A stretch of 8,721 bases of DNA from a bacterium (lineage in GTDB: Bacteria; SM23-31; JAUVVT01). The position numbers were made by a program, and so were the translations under genes. Below are positions 132 to 8,265 of the stretch, piece after piece; position 1 is the first letter of the stretch; the number at the start of each line of letters is the position of its first letter. The stretch spans positions 1-8,721 of the forward strand of contig JAUWXV010000158.1 in assembly GCA_030616165.1 (NCBI GenBank). The letters are read 5' to 3'. Under the pieces are notes generated by a model, which saw only the letters and a list, made by a program, of their open reading frames with translations, was not told the DNA's origin and did not search any database.

Positions 132-1562
132 ATGCCAGATATTAGTTACATATGCATGTCAGATATGCATTTAGGAGAGGAAGATAGTTTATTTATTAAT
201 CTGAAAACTGCAAGCTTTGACACTGATCTCACTATACCCAGTCCTACAACGACTGCTTTTGTTGATTGTCTTCGTGATATAATAGAAAAGAATGAAAAAC
301 CAATAAAGCCTGTGTTAATTTTATGTGGTTATATACTTGAGCTTGCTCTTGCAACGACTGATAAAGCAATTATGGCATTTGAACGTTTTTTTGAACTTAT
401 TATGCCAAAGGGAAAAGAACTATTTAATCGCATTATATATGTTCCAGGTAACCATGACCACCACTTGTGGGAAATTGCAAGGGAAACGCAATATATAAAC
501 TATTTAAAAAGCAAGAAAATAAAAGAAGAACTTAATAAACCATGGCATGCGACTAATCTATTCGTAGAAAAAGACCCAAGGTTACCCAATGAAGTCCTGC
601 TAACAAGTGTTGTGCAGCGCCACACTTATCTAAAATCATTTGAAATAAAAACTGCTTATCCAAATTTTGGTGTTATTAATAAAGATTTCAGTAAAGCTAT
701 TGTTTTTAATCATGGTCATTTCACAGAACCTCTGTATCAACTAATGACTAATGTGATGAATCTTATCTTTCCAGATAGAGAAAAACCCAAAACAGTTTGG
801 GATATTGAAACAGAGAATTATGCATGGATAGATTTTTTTTGGTCAACCTTGGGTAGGTCAGGGAAGGTGGGCGAAAATATTGAAGTGATTTATGAAAATC
901 TTGGAGACAAAAAGCAATTAAAAAAACTTTTACGCTCACTTGCAAAAGGTCTTGCTAAAGAATATGATTTACCTGGGTGGGGAGATTGGATGGAAGAAAA
1001 AATAGCAGCATTTGCTTTTAAGAAAGCAGCAGATATATTTGGCAAAAGAGAAAGATCTATTGTTGAAGACCCTTTGAGTAAATCAACTGAAAAAGGTTTA
1101 TGGACTTATGTCACTGGACCACTCTATAACCAAATAATGCTTGAGCGTAAAGAAAAGATGCCTGCAGATATGACAATCGTTTTTGGTCACACACACAAGC
1201 CATTTCAACAGGATATGAACTTTAAGGACTATCCTAAATGGGTGAACGTATACAATACAGGTGGATGGGTGGTTGAATCTGTTGAGTCGGTATCAATACA
1301 CGGAGGAGCTGTTGTTTTAGTAGATGAGAATCTTGATGCTGCAACTCTGAGAATGTATAATGAAACAGAAAAACCAGAAGACTATCAAGTCTATATTGAA
1401 GAAGCAGTACGTGCTGGACAAGAAAAAAATCCCTTTTACAAAAGACTGAATAGTTTAATTAAACCAACAAAAAAGCCTTGGAAAACATTTTCAGAAATTG
1501 TTGCCCGTGCTGTATATGTGAGATCTCAGAATATACGTGCAAAAATTAATGAAAAGCTGTAA
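132..1562 (+). CDS. Calcineurin-like metallophosphoesterase, large form, with altered GD motif
   Basis: A 476-residue protein with the ordered signature of dinuclear-metal phosphoesterases (PF00149 type): D11-M-H13 near the N-terminus, G106-N107-H108-D109, N193-H194-G195-H196, and G352-H353-T354-H355. The second block, normally Gly-Asp, reads L64-C65-G66-Y67-I68-L69-E70-L71, so the Asp that bridges both metals in the family is Tyr (codon TAT at 330-332, one base from GAT). The protein is about twice the length of LpxH-type enzymes. The extra length lies mainly between the third and last motifs (about residues 200-345) and in a C-terminal tail after residue 380. No signal peptide or membrane segment is visible, so it is probably cytoplasmic. 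The ATG at 132 is preceded by GAGGA at 122-126. The substrate cannot be read from the sequence. The fold assignment is secure, but activity is doubtful because of Y67. Confidence 0.93.
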   Translation: MPDISYICMSDMHLGEEDSLFINLKTASFDTDLTIPSPTTTAFVDCLRDIIEKNEKPIKPVLILCGYILELALATTDKAIMAFERFFELIMPKGKELFNRIIYVPGNHDHHLWEIARETQYINYLKSKKIKEELNKPWHATNLFVEKDPRLPNEVLLTSVVQRHTYLKSFEIKTAYPNFGVINKDFSKAIVFNHGHFTEPLYQLMTNVMNLIFPDREKPKTVWDIETENYAWIDFFWSTLGRSGKVGENIEVIYENLGDKKQLKKLLRSLAKGLAKEYDLPGWGDWMEEKIAAFAFKKAADIFGKRERSIVEDPLSKSTEKGLWTYVTGPLYNQIMLERKEKMPADMTIVFGHTHKPFQQDMNFKDYPKWVNVYNTGGWVVESVESVSIHGGAVVLVDENLDAATLRMYNETEKPEDYQVYIEEAVRAGQEKNPFYKRLNSLIKPTKKPWKTFSEIVARAVYVRSQNIRAKINEKL

Positions 1563-2345: not shown

Positions 2346-2350
2346 GAGGA
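2346..2350 (+). promoter_or_regulatory. Ribosome-binding site fixing the DUF362 gene start
   Basis: GAGGA sits 5 nt before ATG 2356. The longer in-frame alternative, GTG 2344, overlaps this motif and has no SD of its own, so ATG 2356 is the better start. Confidence 0.7.
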
Positions 2351-2355
2351 TAAAT

Positions 2356-5139
2356 ATGAACACAAAAAATTACCAAAAAACTTATGAATTTGAAATGACA
2401 GAAACCATGTGGGGATTTATGTCATTGGGGGCATCCTCGTTTAAGGAGGGTTATGAGGAGGGAAAAAGGAAGGGGAATAAACTGCAGTACGAGGTCACAT
2501 TGCACGTAGAGAATTTTCGAGAATTTAAATCTCCTTCCGGAAGGAGAGCACCCATGACAGGCTGGGTATCCTGTAAGAATCTCTTCGGTGAGAAATTGCC
2601 AATCTATAATGGTGAATATGGTTTGTATTGGGTAGATCCAGAAACAGGTGGCAGAAGAATTTCTTATGATTTCTATTTCAAAGATAAAGGAGGAAATGAG
2701 TACCATTTTTTTGGTTATAAAGTAATTGTTCATGAACCCTGGAAGCTTGATATGTTGGAGGACCAGACGACTCTTTATGCAAAAATTGGAAAAATTGATG
2801 GTGGTGGTGAAAAAATTGTAGCACTGGGAATTATTCATTATCATGTTGAAGATTTCGCTGACATGGTCTTTTCTATTAGAACTCCCAAAAAAGACAATTT
2901 GTTAAATAGATTGCGGATGAGTAGAAAATTTTTCTCCTTTGTCTCCAAGGAAATTAGCGAATACTTTAAAGAAATCAATCCTATGTATCGTGCAGAGTAT
3001 AACAATCTTGTGTGCAAAGGTATTGCTTCAATAGACAGCAAAGACATAGAGTTCTTCTTTTTTTCGGGAGTGCATGATAAGGGCTTCCCATGGGGAGATA
3101 ACGTCGGTTTTTGGGACGTCGCTTTACTGATACGTGAAGATAATATTTGGAGGCGCTTTGCACTTACTGAGCGTGCTATCTCTAAACTTAAACTAAGGAT
3201 AACTGAAGGAACATACACTTTCGAAGGCCATCTGTTTGAGATAACAGCCGGTAATCAGGTCTCTTTTAAAGATATGCATCGAGATCAACTGCCCGATCAT
3301 CTGCGAAAAGTTAATGTAAAAATTGAATTACGCTTTAAACCAGATATTATTGAAAAAAGGAATATACCTTTCGAAAAGTGTTTTGATGAGGTTAAGAATT
3401 TAACTCGAGGATTTTGGGATAAAATAAAGTTGTTCAGAGATATGCGTAGGCTTGAAAAATGGCGAAAAGATTTTAATGGATTGGGATATACTACCAATAT
3501 CTATCGACTAACAGAAATAGCAGGTAACTTCGTGGTGAATAATACCAACTATTCTATATATAAAAATAAAACCCTCGGTGAAGGAGAAATCGGTCAACTG
3601 GCAGGCTTGAGAAATCCTAAACTCTATTATAACTATTTCTGTGGTATAGAGCCAGAAGCAGGCCTGTTCAGAGTACATATTCGTTCTGGGATTTTACGGT
3701 CCCTATCAAAAGACCTTTTTAGCAACAAGGCTGAAGAACTTATGGGAAAGGTAATTGGGCAGTTTGTGAGGATGGATCTGCAGGTCAAAGACGAACAAAA
3801 AGAAGATATTAAATCAGAAGAGGCAGATTTCCTAATAGTACCACAGGAGGATTTACTTGAGATAAACAACGACCATTATCCCACTGCAACCTTCCAACGT
3901 CGCGTAGTGACACTTCCAAACTCTACTGGCAGAAGGATGCTGGCGTTGGAGGAGGATATGAGTATTATCAATTTAGAATCTGACCGAAGTTCTAAAATTA
4001 CTTTCGTAGCAGCTATCAAAGACCCTGACCGCTTTAATGCTCTTGATAAGGTATTAGAAGAGACCGGCTTTTTTGACTTGCTGGATAAAACTCAACGAAG
4101 CTCAGGTAAGAATAAAGAGGATTTCTCAATTATTATAAAACCCAATCTCAGCTTTATGTATTCTCTTACAGATATTTCTACTTTCACTGACCCTAATTTA
4201 GTAGAGCATTTAGTAGACAGAATTTATGAGAGGGGATATAGGAATATTTCAGTTGCAGAAGCTCAAAGTACATACTGTATATTTTTTAACAATAGAGACG
4301 TACTAACATTGGCAAGATATATTGGCTTAAGTGGCAAAAATTATAAGATTATTGACCTTTCGGAAGATACGGTTGAACATGATTATGGCAGGACATTAGG
4401 TAAGCACGAAGTCCACCCTGAATGGAGAGATGCTGACTTCAGAATTTCTTTTGCCAAGAATAAAACCCATTCCTATGCTTTCTATACGTTAACTATAAAA
4501 AACATCTACGGTGCCCTGCCAAAGAAAAATAAATTTAAGGAATATCACTGTAATGAAAAATTAGGTATTTATATTCCGGCTATAGATTACATAGATGAGT
4601 TTCCCATACATTATGGCTTAATCGACGGATACATCAGTGCTGACGGCGCATTTGGGATATTTGCTGATGTCGAGCCAAATTTTACCAGCACAATCATCGG
4701 CGGAGGTAACCTTGTAGCCGTAGACTGGGTAGGAGCTTCAAAGATGGGGCTTGATCCCATGATAAGCACTTATATGGAATTGGCGGTTGAGAGGTTCGGC
4801 AAGCCCGAGATCAAGCTCATTGGAGATCATTCACTTTATACGGGTTGGCGTAATGTTCCGGAATTTGTATCTAAAGCAGCCTTCGAAATCATGGACAGAA
4901 ATTACACCTTTGGTAATTTCCTTTATTCAGTTATGGCTACGATGGATCCTTTTTTTAGATTTAAACAAGATGAATTGTACCGGAGAGCTGCCAGGCTTTT
5001 TAGTGAACCATTACGTAAACTTCTCTTTGAATGGGTTCATGGAGATAGGGAAGAGCTTACTTGGGAACATCTGATAGGAATGTTTGACCGGGATCAGCTC
5101 GAGAATGCTGAAGAACTTATTAAGGTATTATTAGAATAA
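2356..5139 (+). CDS. Multidomain protein: GMC-oxidoreductase-associated N-terminal domain plus C-terminal DUF362 domain
   Basis: A 927-residue protein without signal peptide or membrane segments. Residues about 12-205 (Thr-Glu-Thr-Met at 15-18, Thr-Thr-Leu-Tyr at 138-141) resemble, by recall, the accessory domain at the N-terminus of some large cholesterol-oxidase-type GMC oxidoreductases. Residues about 210-340 and 345-480 are two further regions I cannot assign. Residues about 547-900 match DUF362 (PF04015): K595-P596-N597, K703-T704-H705, K715-N716 followed by I-Y-G, Y730-H731, D757-G758, and V787-A-V-D790 with M797-G-L-D-P801. No Cys-rich ferredoxin motif is present, unlike DUF362 proteins that carry Fe-S domains. 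Typical DUF362 proteins are far shorter. The biochemical function of DUF362 is not established. A lipid or sterol link is inferred only from the N-terminal resemblance. The nearest upstream gene is the phosphoesterase, about 0.8 kb away, so the gene probably has its own promoter. Confidence 0.85.
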   Translation: MNTKNYQKTYEFEMTETMWGFMSLGASSFKEGYEEGKRKGNKLQYEVTLHVENFREFKSPSGRRAPMTGWVSCKNLFGEKLPIYNGEYGLYWVDPETGGRRISYDFYFKDKGGNEYHFFGYKVIVHEPWKLDMLEDQTTLYAKIGKIDGGGEKIVALGIIHYHVEDFADMVFSIRTPKKDNLLNRLRMSRKFFSFVSKEISEYFKEINPMYRAEYNNLVCKGIASIDSKDIEFFFFSGVHDKGFPWGDNVGFWDVALLIREDNIWRRFALTERAISKLKLRITEGTYTFEGHLFEITAGNQVSFKDMHRDQLPDHLRKVNVKIELRFKPDIIEKRNIPFEKCFDEVKNLTRGFWDKIKLFRDMRRLEKWRKDFNGLGYTTNIYRLTEIAGNFVVNNTNYSIYKNKTLGEGEIGQLAGLRNPKLYYNYFCGIEPEAGLFRVHIRSGILRSLSKDLFSNKAEELMGKVIGQFVRMDLQVKDEQKEDIKSEEADFLIVPQEDLLEINNDHYPTATFQRRVVTLPNSTGRRMLALEEDMSIINLESDRSSKITFVAAIKDPDRFNALDKVLEETGFFDLLDKTQRSSGKNKEDFSIIIKPNLSFMYSLTDISTFTDPNLVEHLVDRIYERGYRNISVAEAQSTYCIFFNNRDVLTLARYIGLSGKNYKIIDLSEDTVEHDYGRTLGKHEVHPEWRDADFRISFAKNKTHSYAFYTLTIKNIYGALPKKNKFKEYHCNEKLGIYIPAIDYIDEFPIHYGLIDGYISADGAFGIFADVEPNFTSTIIGGGNLVAVDWVGASKMGLDPMISTYMELAVERFGKPEIKLIGDHSLYTGWRNVPEFVSKAAFEIMDRNYTFGNFLYSVMATMDPFFRFKQDELYRRAARLFSEPLRKLLFEWVHGDREELTWEHLIGMFDRDQLENAEELIKVLLE

Positions 5140-5273: not shown

Positions 5274-6578
5274 TTATTTAGGTCCAGGCTTATCTCTCAT
5301 TATTCCTCTCAAACGATAAAGATTTTCAAGATGTTTATTCATAATTGCTTCACCAGCACCAACCTGTATTCTCCTTGGACTGTCATCAGCACCATACCCT
5401 CCATACGCTGCTGATTTAATATCACATACATATCCAGGATTATCTCCTCCGGAACTCAAAGTGTAACCAAAAAAGAATGGATGAGCAATTTCAGCATGTT
5501 CTTTCCAGTAAAACTGGTGCTGTACAAACGGTTCTCCTTGCATTGTTGCTATAGCGATATCATCATTTATCAGAACAGTTGTAAAGTGCATATTATAAGT
5601 AAGATTTTTATCAAACCTTCCTGTAAACTTCAATGAATCACACATTGCTTTCAATGTTGTCTGCTCATTTGTTTGTGGAGGTAAAGATTTTACTACCTTT
5701 ATTACTTCATTTGCTAAAATAGTCCCCATTTTTTCTTTCTGTGTGTAATCGGTGGCTGGATCACCATTTGGACCTCTGCTCGGACTTCTGAACATAGGAT
5801 TAATTTCACCTGCACCACCCTGAATAAACATACACATGGTATTATTTCCAAACTCTTCATCTACTTTTCTTGTGGCGGCACCGGGATAGTCTGCCGAAAT
5901 TTCATAGTTAACAGCATTTACAACAGAATGACAGGCATACGTCATAAGAATAACTCGTGGATTACCATTTACATCCTCAATTTTTATCACCCCAACCTCT
6001 GGGTCCACAGGTCCATACGGTATCCTGTCCCAATCCATCCACAATGCCCGCCTATGTCCATCCTCTCTCATGGTAAGCCTGTTATACCCAAGCTGAGGAA
6101 AAGTTGCGGAACCGGCAGAAATTCTTGCCGGAAACATATTCTTGATTGCTTCATCTAATCCATCAACAATAGCTTTTTCCACTGAACGAGCATACGAATC
6201 AGAATCTCTAAGGTTAGGACCTGAGTGAGTATGAGAACTGCATACTAATAAATTGGGAATATTAAATCGTTCCTTAGCAATATCTAAAATATCTCTATCA
6301 TTATAGAAAATCAAATCACCGCAAATAATAGCAACCCGATATCCATTAACATCAAGCACTAAAACTCGTATATAAAGCGGATCATTGATACCTTCTGATG
6401 GTTCTTTATCTCTCTTACCATACCCACCAACCAGTCTTATGCCAACTGGCGGTGTAATATCAACTTTTGCAGTGCCAACATATAATTCTCCTGTAGCACA
6501 AAAAGAATCAGTGTTTGGAATAAATCCAGACAACCCGAATAATATAATGAATACAAAAAAGAATTTTATTTTGTTCAT
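5274..6578 (-). CDS. Secreted neutral/alkaline ceramidase-like hydrolase
   Basis: A 434-residue protein resembling the catalytic N-terminal domain of neutral/alkaline ceramidases (PF04734), zinc amidases that cleave the N-acyl bond of ceramides. Residues 1-28 form a Sec-type signal peptide (Lys-rich start, Phe/Ile/Leu core, Cys27-Ala28), so the product should reach the periplasm or outside. The mature part opens with the family hallmark V34-G-T-A-K-V-D-I-T-P-P44. Probable zinc-site elements are S115-H116-T117-H118-S119-G120-P121, A215-C-H217-S, G348-E349-P350, and Tyr383 or a nearby Tyr. The loop that holds the nucleophilic Ser in characterised ceramidases (Gly-x-x-Ser-Pro) is here G257-E258-I259-N260-P261, with Asn instead. 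The protein lacks the C-terminal domain that takes Pseudomonas ceramidase to about 650 residues. AAGGAG lies at 6588-6593 on the minus strand, 9 nt before ATG. The family is clear. The substrate is not, and it may be another amide or ester. Confidence 0.9.
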   Translation of the reverse strand: MNKIKFFFVFIILFGLSGFIPNTDSFCATGELYVGTAKVDITPPVGIRLVGGYGKRDKEPSEGINDPLYIRVLVLDVNGYRVAIICGDLIFYNDRDILDIAKERFNIPNLLVCSSHTHSGPNLRDSDSYARSVEKAIVDGLDEAIKNMFPARISAGSATFPQLGYNRLTMREDGHRRALWMDWDRIPYGPVDPEVGVIKIEDVNGNPRVILMTYACHSVVNAVNYEISADYPGAATRKVDEEFGNNTMCMFIQGGAGEINPMFRSPSRGPNGDPATDYTQKEKMGTILANEVIKVVKSLPPQTNEQTTLKAMCDSLKFTGRFDKNLTYNMHFTTVLINDDIAIATMQGEPFVQHQFYWKEHAEIAHPFFFGYTLSSGGDNPGYVCDIKSAAYGGYGADDSPRRIQVGAGEAIMNKHLENLYRLRGIMRDKPGPK

Positions 6579-6611
6579 TGTTCTATTCTCCTTTAATTTA
6601 AATGCCCACTT

Positions 6612-6640
6612 AATATTAATTTTGATAAAATAAAAGGCAA
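6612..6640 (-). promoter_or_regulatory. Candidate promoter of the ceramidase-like gene
   Basis: Read on the minus strand, TTGCCT (6635-6640) and AATATT (6612-6617) are 17 nt apart, each matching four of six consensus bases, and sit 34 nt upstream of the ATG. A competing pair, TTGATA (6710-6715) and TATACA (6689-6694), has only a 15-nt spacer. In DNA this AT-rich neither is decisive. Confidence 0.28.
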
Positions 6641-7292
6641 ACTAATTTTTTACCATTAATAAAAAAACATATATAAAAACGCATTGAATGTATATAATTT
6701 CTTCTTTTTTATCAAGTGTTATTTAAAAATTTTGACGTTTTATTATGTTAATATCATTTTAATTAAGAAAGAAAAAAATTTAACAATCCAGCAAAATCTT
6801 CTTGAATACATATTTCTATTGAAAATATAATGAGTTTCTTGGACTTTTTAGAATAATATTTTAAAAAAAAATTGATTTCCCTTTTTTCAAAATTCTTCAC
6901 TCATCATTTAGATATTTTTCGTTGTTTAATTGTTCAAAAAATGTAATTTTTTTAGTATATTGACAATTCTTAAAAAATAATTTGATTATTTTAAAAATCT
7001 TATCAAGGATGTAAGAAAAGATGAAATTACTGGAGATATGGAATGGAGATCGTAACAGGTTAATATTATATTTTGATTCCAAAAATACTATTATTCGCTT
7101 GCATCTTACAGAACAATGTGATATATTTTTACGATAAATTAGCAGAATCCTGAACATTCTCTTTTAGAAAATTAATATGGGGAATATCGGATTATTCTTC
7201 AGGGTGACATTAGAATATTTTTATCAATAATTTATTTTTTTACTGTTTATTTTCATAAATGATAATTAATTATATAAAATAGTTAATAAGTA

Positions 7293-7353: not shown

Positions 7354-8265
7354 ATGAGCGTAATCAGTAATGAAAACAGAATTAGCAGGCGTCGATTTAT
7401 TTCACGGTCTTCTACAGCAATTGCTTACTTGGCTGTTGCATCCAGAGTATATCCCCAGCCCATGAAGAAGAAGCTTACAGCGGGAGAATTAAATAGTTAT
7501 CTAAATTCACTGGGAACTGATTGGGTGGATCTGGGCAAAACCGTAGATACATTTAAGTCCGGCGGGCATGAAGTAGAGGTGAAAGGTATTGCGGTAGGAT
7601 GGATGTCCTACACCGGTTCATTAAAAAGGGCATTGGAATTGGAATGTAACGTTTTCATTACTCATGAACCCACATACTATAACCATCGGGATAACGATGA
7701 GAAAATTTTCCGTTTTGAACAGGTTGCTAAAAAGCGGGAATTTATTGAAAATTCAAAAATCACTATTATCCGCTGTCATGACGTTTGGGACCAGTATCCC
7801 GATATTGGTATCCCTACAGCATGGGGAAAATTTCTGGGATTAGGCGAGCCGATAGACGGGAGCGGATATTTTTATGTCTATGACGGAAGAGGTCAAACAG
7901 CAGTTGAGATTGCCCGGAAAATTTCAACAAGGGTTAAAGACCTTGGTCAACCGGGAGTACAGTTTATCGGTCCCGATAAAAAATCGGTTCGAAGGATAGT
8001 GCTGGGTACAGGTGCGATTACGCCTATGTTCCGTTTTATCGAAAATCTGGATGCAGACCTTGCAATATGCACTGACGACGGATTTGTTTACTGGCGGGAT
8101 GGTGCATTTGCAATCGATAATGATTTTCCGGTGGTCCTTGTCAATCACCCTGTTTCTGAAGATCACGGAATGAAACTCCTGGCAGGTCACTTATCGAAAG
8201 TATTCCCACAAGTACCTGTACATCATATTCCCCAAAAATGTATGTACAAAATAATTCGAGGATAA
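7354..8265 (+). CDS. Tat-exported NIF3-like dinuclear metal-centre protein
   Basis: A 303-residue protein. The N-terminus carries a twin-arginine signal, S11-R12-R13-R14-F15 followed by a short hydrophobic stretch (about 20-30), so folded export with bound metal is predicted. The remainder resembles the NIF3/YbgI/DUF34 family (PF01784). I102-T-H104-E105-P106 stands where the family has its His-His-Pro block, C141-H142-D143-V-W-D146 corresponds to the central His/Asp metal block, and N264-H265-P-V-S-E269 keeps the His-x3-Glu spacing of the C-terminal ligands. V216-L-G-T-G220 fits the Gly-rich strand in the middle. Length is near the family norm once the signal is removed. ATG 7354 is preceded by GGAGGAGGG (7339-7347) at 6 nt. 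NIF3 proteins are usually cytoplasmic and of uncertain function, so a Tat-exported member is notable. Its substrate is unknown. A Tat-exported reductase gene follows downstream. Confidence 0.88.
   Translation: MSVISNENRISRRRFISRSSTAIAYLAVASRVYPQPMKKKLTAGELNSYLNSLGTDWVDLGKTVDTFKSGGHEVEVKGIAVGWMSYTGSLKRALELECNVFITHEPTYYNHRDNDEKIFRFEQVAKKREFIENSKITIIRCHDVWDQYPDIGIPTAWGKFLGLGEPIDGSGYFYVYDGRGQTAVEIARKISTRVKDLGQPGVQFIGPDKKSVRRIVLGTGAITPMFRFIENLDADLAICTDDGFVYWRDGAFAIDNDFPVVLVNHPVSEDHGMKLLAGHLSKVFPQVPVHHIPQKCMYKIIRG

Follow-up and report, generated by a model that had tools for sequence, protein, structure and literature searches.

A rare fusion protein joining a GMC-associated barrel and a predicted double barrel to a LarA-like DUF362 domain, a candidate nickel-pincer enzyme

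The locus described here raises the question of what a DUF362 domain may do when it is joined, in one chain, to a domain shared with large GMC oxidoreductases and to a further module lying between the two. In the window, the whole stretch of 8,721 nucleotides that was analysed, the gene is a single unbroken open reading frame on the plus strand, running from GTG 2344 or ATG 2356 to 5139. We regard ATG 2356 as the likelier start, since a likely ribosome-binding site, GAGG (2346..2349, plus strand), lies 6 nt before it. The gene then occupies 2356..5139, stop codon included, and encodes 927 aa; a start at GTG 2344 would give 931 aa. Residue numbers used here begin at GTG 2344, and subtracting 4 gives the numbering from the ATG. 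The initial annotation had described a 927-residue protein with DUF362 in its last third and without an Fe-S or Cys-rich motif. Each of these observations is borne out: the ATG 2356 reading frame has this length, Pfam places DUF362 at residues 596-798 (E 1.2e-19, 71.7 bits against a cut-off of 24), and the protein sequence contains no CxxCxxC-type or cysteine-rich motif. The full-length AF2 model (pLDDT 78.5, pTM 0.50) was built without templates, from an input alignment without LarA or CrtC sequences, and its inter-domain packing is unreliable. It ends in a helical C-terminal tail (residues 837-931; 4852..5136, plus strand) that is modelled with low confidence and partly conserved.

Six other genomes encode proteins of this full architecture, at 36-63% identity. 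The homologue from Candidatus Fischerbacteria RBG_13_37_8 (L031/L069) is 63% identical over its full length and that from Myxococcota MO_167.B37 (L032) 57%, likewise over its full length, followed by a full-length homologue at about 40% identity in one further genome (L096/L115) and by three more full-length Myxococcota homologues at 36-37% (L055, L056 and L057). An assembly artefact or chance reading frame is ruled out, since the same architecture is repeated in seven genomes, the window's own included. The fusion gene is rare and widely scattered: it is present in 4 of the 282 Myxococcota genomes surveyed and in 2 of the 386 genomes sampled around the window's own genome, which is itself counted, and no match to it was found in the plasmid collection. 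Neither Pfam nor NCBIfam has a named family for the full architecture, and NCBIfam gave no match near its cut-off. The initial view that such a fusion to DUF362 is unusual is thus upheld, and the finding is a new architecture assembled from known folds.

The N-terminal module, Domain A (residues 16-208; 2389..2967, plus strand), had been linked by the initial annotation (as residues 1-205) to an accessory domain found in large GMC enzymes, and this relationship stands. It was first seen as 24% identity over residues 17-206 with a C-terminal segment of a GMC oxidoreductase (E 5e-12). A blastp search with residues 1-210 then matched the region after GMC_oxred_C at L068 (E 9e-17), L065 (2e-14), L067 (3e-12) and L066 (2.5e-11). 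Pfam recognises both GMC_oxred_N and GMC_oxred_C in L065, L066 and L068, two of which also have a following alpha/beta hydrolase, while the L067 frame has only a partial flavoprotein match. Homology of Domain A to this unnamed C-terminal accessory barrel is therefore well supported at the level of sequence comparison. Its AF2 model is a closed antiparallel beta-barrel with a long helix (pLDDT 86.8, pTM 0.83). Searches of Domain A against Pfam, NCBIfam families and PDB sequences returned nothing credible, and the fold search retrieved only generic barrels, the nearest solved folds scoring Z 8.4 or less; we therefore claim no function from its fold. The initial proposal that DUF362 simply replaces the flavin enzyme does not hold. 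Whereas the barrel follows the GMC domain in large GMC oxidoreductases, it is N-terminal in the fusion, and a CrtC/AttH-like module stands between the barrel and DUF362. Large GMC oxidoreductases also carry the flavin domain, whereas the fusion protein has no Pfam match to GMC_oxred_N or GMC_oxred_C. In one of the Myxococcota genomes (G125), a gene encoding a GMC domain, Domain A and an alpha/beta hydrolase is separated by about 4.4 kb from the DUF362 fusion (L055:624-3980, plus strand, and 8416-11295, minus strand), so that two Domain A proteins are near neighbours there.

The module between Domain A and DUF362, Domains B+C (residues 213-545; 2980..3978, plus strand), is predicted to form a two-barrel fold like that of CrtC, AttH and kievitone hydratase. 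The initial annotation had left two regions, of about 270 residues together, unassigned. By sequence they remain unassigned, as residues 205-560 found no credible match in Pfam or among PDB sequences, CrtC/AttH included, but the region comprises about 330 residues and is predicted as one two-barrel module. Its model matches kievitone hydratase 7a0q (Z 16.9, 236 residues, 3.6 A), AttH 2ich (Z 15.9), fungal pericyclases (Z about 13-14) and 25-phosphosteroid lyase 9g2i (Z 12.8), the last being the best Foldseek match (E 3e-6). The two-barrel fold is thus common to all these proteins, while B+C differs from the CrtC/AttH-type family in sequence and in being fused to other domains, so that the likeness is one of fold only. 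In CrtC, the terpene substrate is bound in a cavity between the two barrels (PMC12402844), and the target of 25-phosphosteroid lyase is the side chain of the sterol (PMC11061730). That B+C shares its predicted fold with isoprenoid hydratases and with this lyase lends indirect support to the earlier suggestion of a lipid- or sterol-related enzyme, for which the reaction and substrate can so far be proposed only by inference.

These fold matches also bear on whether B+C might be the real catalyst, working in the manner of an isoprenoid hydratase or phosphosteroid lyase, with DUF362 serving it, for example by acting on a hydroxy-acid side chain that their shared substrate carries. Hydratases and 25-phosphosteroid lyase are the strongest matches of residues 213-545, and H244, D252, D258 and N509-D510 are invariant, as are E413, E415, R519 and R520, among the B+C residues of the seven homologues. 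However, the catalytic residues of RgCrtC (D268, W110, W283 and W285; PMC12402844) could not be placed on B+C, and the same fold occurs in pericyclases and in proteins of other chemistries. We consider it very unlikely that the double barrel is the main catalyst.

Domain D (residues 559-836; 4018..4851, plus strand) contains the DUF362 match and is predicted to adopt the fold of the N-terminal domain of LarA, a likeness that had no part in the initial annotation. DUF362 (PF04015) was matched in 7 of 7 full-length homologues and is the only credible Pfam domain even with the E limit raised to 1 or 5; Lar_N (PF09861) was not matched. The Domain D model aligns with 6d6z, of the LarA/malate racemase type, at Z 15.8 (210 residues, 3.1 A), with 9eia at Z 15.8 and with 5huq at Z 14.9, and with the single-histidine enzymes 9q3j and 9q3k, which use the nickel-pincer nucleotide (NPN), at Z 13.9 and 13.4. 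A superfamily relation between DUF362 and LarA was already known, as DUF362 and DUF2088/LarA belong to the same Pfam clan, CL0471 (PMC11770544); the residue-level alignment is what is new here. When a direct link to LarA was sought with a DUF362 profile against PDB sequences, the matches were swamped by ferredoxins. A profile alignment of 17 DUF362 sequences with 7 LarA sequences, made at the sequence level and not on coordinates, scored 27.9, whereas 150 column shuffles averaged 15.7 and did not exceed 26.4; the E-value given by hhalign itself was modest (0.009-0.018).

In this alignment, H709 (4468..4470, plus strand) corresponds to the LarA catalytic His174, K719 (4498..4500, plus strand) to the cofactor-tethering lysine, Lys184, and H735 (4546..4548, plus strand) to the nickel ligand, His200. 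The numbers 184 and 200, which we take to be those of LarA, agree with invariant columns of the LarA alignment. Every one of the 17 aligned DUF362 sequences has the equivalents of H709, K719 and H735, whose spacing in the fusion protein, H-x9-K-x15-H, is exactly that of the LarA sequences. The alignment of the cofactor residues and their invariance are thus well supported by sequence. In LarA, the lysine holds the NPN via a thioamide, the histidine completes the nickel coordination, and His108 and His174 form the acid/base pair (PMC12611868). The equivalent of His108 is missing from the fusion protein, where the region reads S642-T643-Y644, and the DxTR motif of LarA is without counterpart in its DUF362 domain; LarA chemistry can therefore not be transferred unchanged. 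For a LarA homologue without one histidine, hydride transfer to an adjacent site has been proposed (PMC7583248). The single-histidine LarA proteins lack His174 (PMC12611868), whereas DUF362 lacks His108. DUF362 would thus share with LarA/DUF2088 (PF09861; 5huq, 6d6z, 9eia, 9q3j) the N-terminal-domain fold, the clan, the Lys/His residues and one catalytic His. For the C-terminal domain of LarA, in contrast, there is no clear match in the fusion protein, which has the added barrels. At 927 aa and without ferredoxin motifs, the fusion also differs from most sampled DUF362 members, whose reading frames span about 290-470 aa and in many cases encode such motifs.

The lack of conservation of His108 and DxTR, and the ferredoxin motifs of many DUF362 proteins, which suggest other redox chemistry, speak for a protein that has kept the LarA fold and residues and yet binds another cofactor or ligand in place of NPN, such as another nucleotide, a metal or a phosphate group, while still being a lipid or isoprenoid enzyme. 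Against it, the protein keeps in register the NPN-tethering Lys, the His that ligates nickel and one of the catalytic His residues. We consider binding of another ligand possible, if doubtful, and the genome distribution described below provides arguments on both sides.

Residue conservation also bears on a role as a lipid or sterol carrier or scaffold, in which the barrels would be combined with a catalytically dead DUF362 domain and no nickel chemistry would take place. Lipocalin-type folds often merely bind ligands, and probably non-catalytic DUF362 domains do exist. They occur in a second type of DUF362 fusion (L059:1098-2906, L060:6563-9277 and L061:7579-9444, all on the plus strand, and L062:4721-6649, minus strand), in which DUF362 follows an N-terminal domain that bears an ExxH-type motif and has itself lost both the conserved Lys and the second His. 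The protein at L060 has a further C-terminal hydrolase-like stretch. A different arrangement is seen at L063:160-2010 (plus strand), where a 616-aa protein begins with DUF362, its His/Lys/His triad complete, and continues with a hydrophobic stretch and a C-terminal domain. DUF362 has thus been recombined with other modules, and inactive versions probably occur among them. In the present fusion, however, few stretches of the seven sequences are as well conserved as the triad and its surroundings (KNKTH, KNIYGALP and YHC), unlike what would be expected of a dead domain, which makes a mere carrier distinctly unlikely.

A nickel-pincer enzyme would depend on the availability of its cofactor. LarE was found above its curated cut-off in 6 of the 6 fusion genomes tested and LarC in 5 of them, some of the genomes being incomplete MAGs. 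The genome G125 has LarE and LarC and no Lar_N match, and a genome outside the six-genome test (G413) was found to have LarC in the wider set. Since both proteins are common and some MAGs are incomplete, their presence is weak evidence when taken alone. Among 241 genomes, 98 had both DUF362 and LarC, 28 DUF362 only, 30 LarC only and 85 neither, which corresponds to an odds ratio of 9.9 (p 3.5e-16; phylogeny and lifestyle uncorrected). In genomes without LarA, DUF362 was present in 35 of 52 LarC-positive and 16 of 93 LarC-negative genomes (odds ratio 9.9, p 2e-9; phylogeny and lifestyle uncorrected). Restricting a 60-genome subset to genomes of 2.0 Mb or more, or of 2.4 Mb or more, leaves the association in place. 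The statement that every DUF362 needs NPN is rejected as it stands: 28 of the 126 DUF362-positive genomes are without LarC, several of them at 98-100% completeness, so that DUF362 cannot require LarC everywhere. In the control set, LarC and DUF362, but not Lar_N, are matched in Synechococcus elongatus; of the pair, LarC alone is present in Corynebacterium, M. jannaschii and Haloferax, and DUF362 alone in Bacteroides ihuae. In the genome G558, a LarC-type reading frame (239 aa) overlaps by 4 nt with a downstream Fe-S-type DUF362 reading frame (376 aa; L092:5180-6310 and 6307-7026, both minus strand), an arrangement that suggests that a DUF362 protein is translated together with a protein of nickel-pincer maturation. 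For the binding of another ligand, the 28 LarC-less genomes, of which some are complete and encode several DUF362 copies, count in favour, whereas the LarC association and this one gene overlap count against. In about 15% of surveyed genomes, larB, larC and larE are present and larA is absent (PMC11796402). The association of DUF362 with LarC provides a lead on which proteins use NPN in such LarA-less genomes.

We tentatively favour, with somewhat less than even confidence, a single-chain enzyme for a hydrophobic hydroxylated substrate, of the LarA type and probably with a nickel-pincer core. We propose that (i) the barrels of Domain A and B+C would bind a greasy, probably isoprenoid- or sterol-like, substrate; (ii) B+C may hydrate, dehydrate or isomerise the side chain of this substrate; (iii) K719 and H735 would hold a nickel-pincer-type cofactor in the DUF362 domain; and (iv) with H709 as the sole acid/base residue, a hydride would be moved at the alcohol carbon, resulting in isomerisation or epimerisation. 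According to this scheme, the reaction would not be a two-histidine racemisation of a small 2-hydroxy acid. We infer the cofactor, the reaction and the action of all domains on one substrate, and likewise the substrate class, which is drawn from the folds and from the company of Domain A with GMC-barrel enzymes.

Until now, the nickel-pincer nucleotide has been linked to LarA-type racemases, and fold, residue and genome evidence make the widespread DUF362 domain a candidate user of it. The fusion provides one specific protein, with hydrophobic pockets predicted, on which such use could be tested. A nickel-pincer reading would, if true, carry organonickel hydride chemistry to substrates other than small 2-hydroxy acids and give the large orphan family DUF362 a chemistry. 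A bolder version, which we regard as unlikely, is that DUF362 forms a second large branch of NPN enzymes with one histidine, explaining many of the LarA-less genomes with NPN genes, and that the fusion is a member of this branch joined to a hydratase-type double barrel and acting on isoprenoid- or sterol-like alcohols.

The gene surroundings show no conserved operon, as no neighbour recurs across distant fusion genomes. L055 and L056 have neighbours in common because their genomes are closely related, and the neighbours at L057 are signalling genes. A calcineurin-like phosphoesterase near the fusion, in the window and at L055, was considered as a link and rejected, the two being of different type. 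The one in the window, a metallophosphoesterase of 476 aa (132-1562, plus strand) upstream of the fusion, weakly matches an anti-phage phosphoesterase model, far below the cut-off. The one at L055 (4974-8120, plus strand) is a protein of 1048 aa that combines a calcineurin-like phosphoesterase with STAND-type NTPase motifs and is reminiscent of defence proteins. Convergent with the fusion gene, the window encodes a 434-aa protein with a Ceramidase_alk N-terminal domain and a likely signal peptide (5274-6578, minus strand), which covers the first part of the ceramidase model only. Further downstream, a NIF3/DUF34 protein (7354-8265, plus strand) has an apparent Tat-type N-terminus, which is unusual for a family generally regarded as cytosolic.
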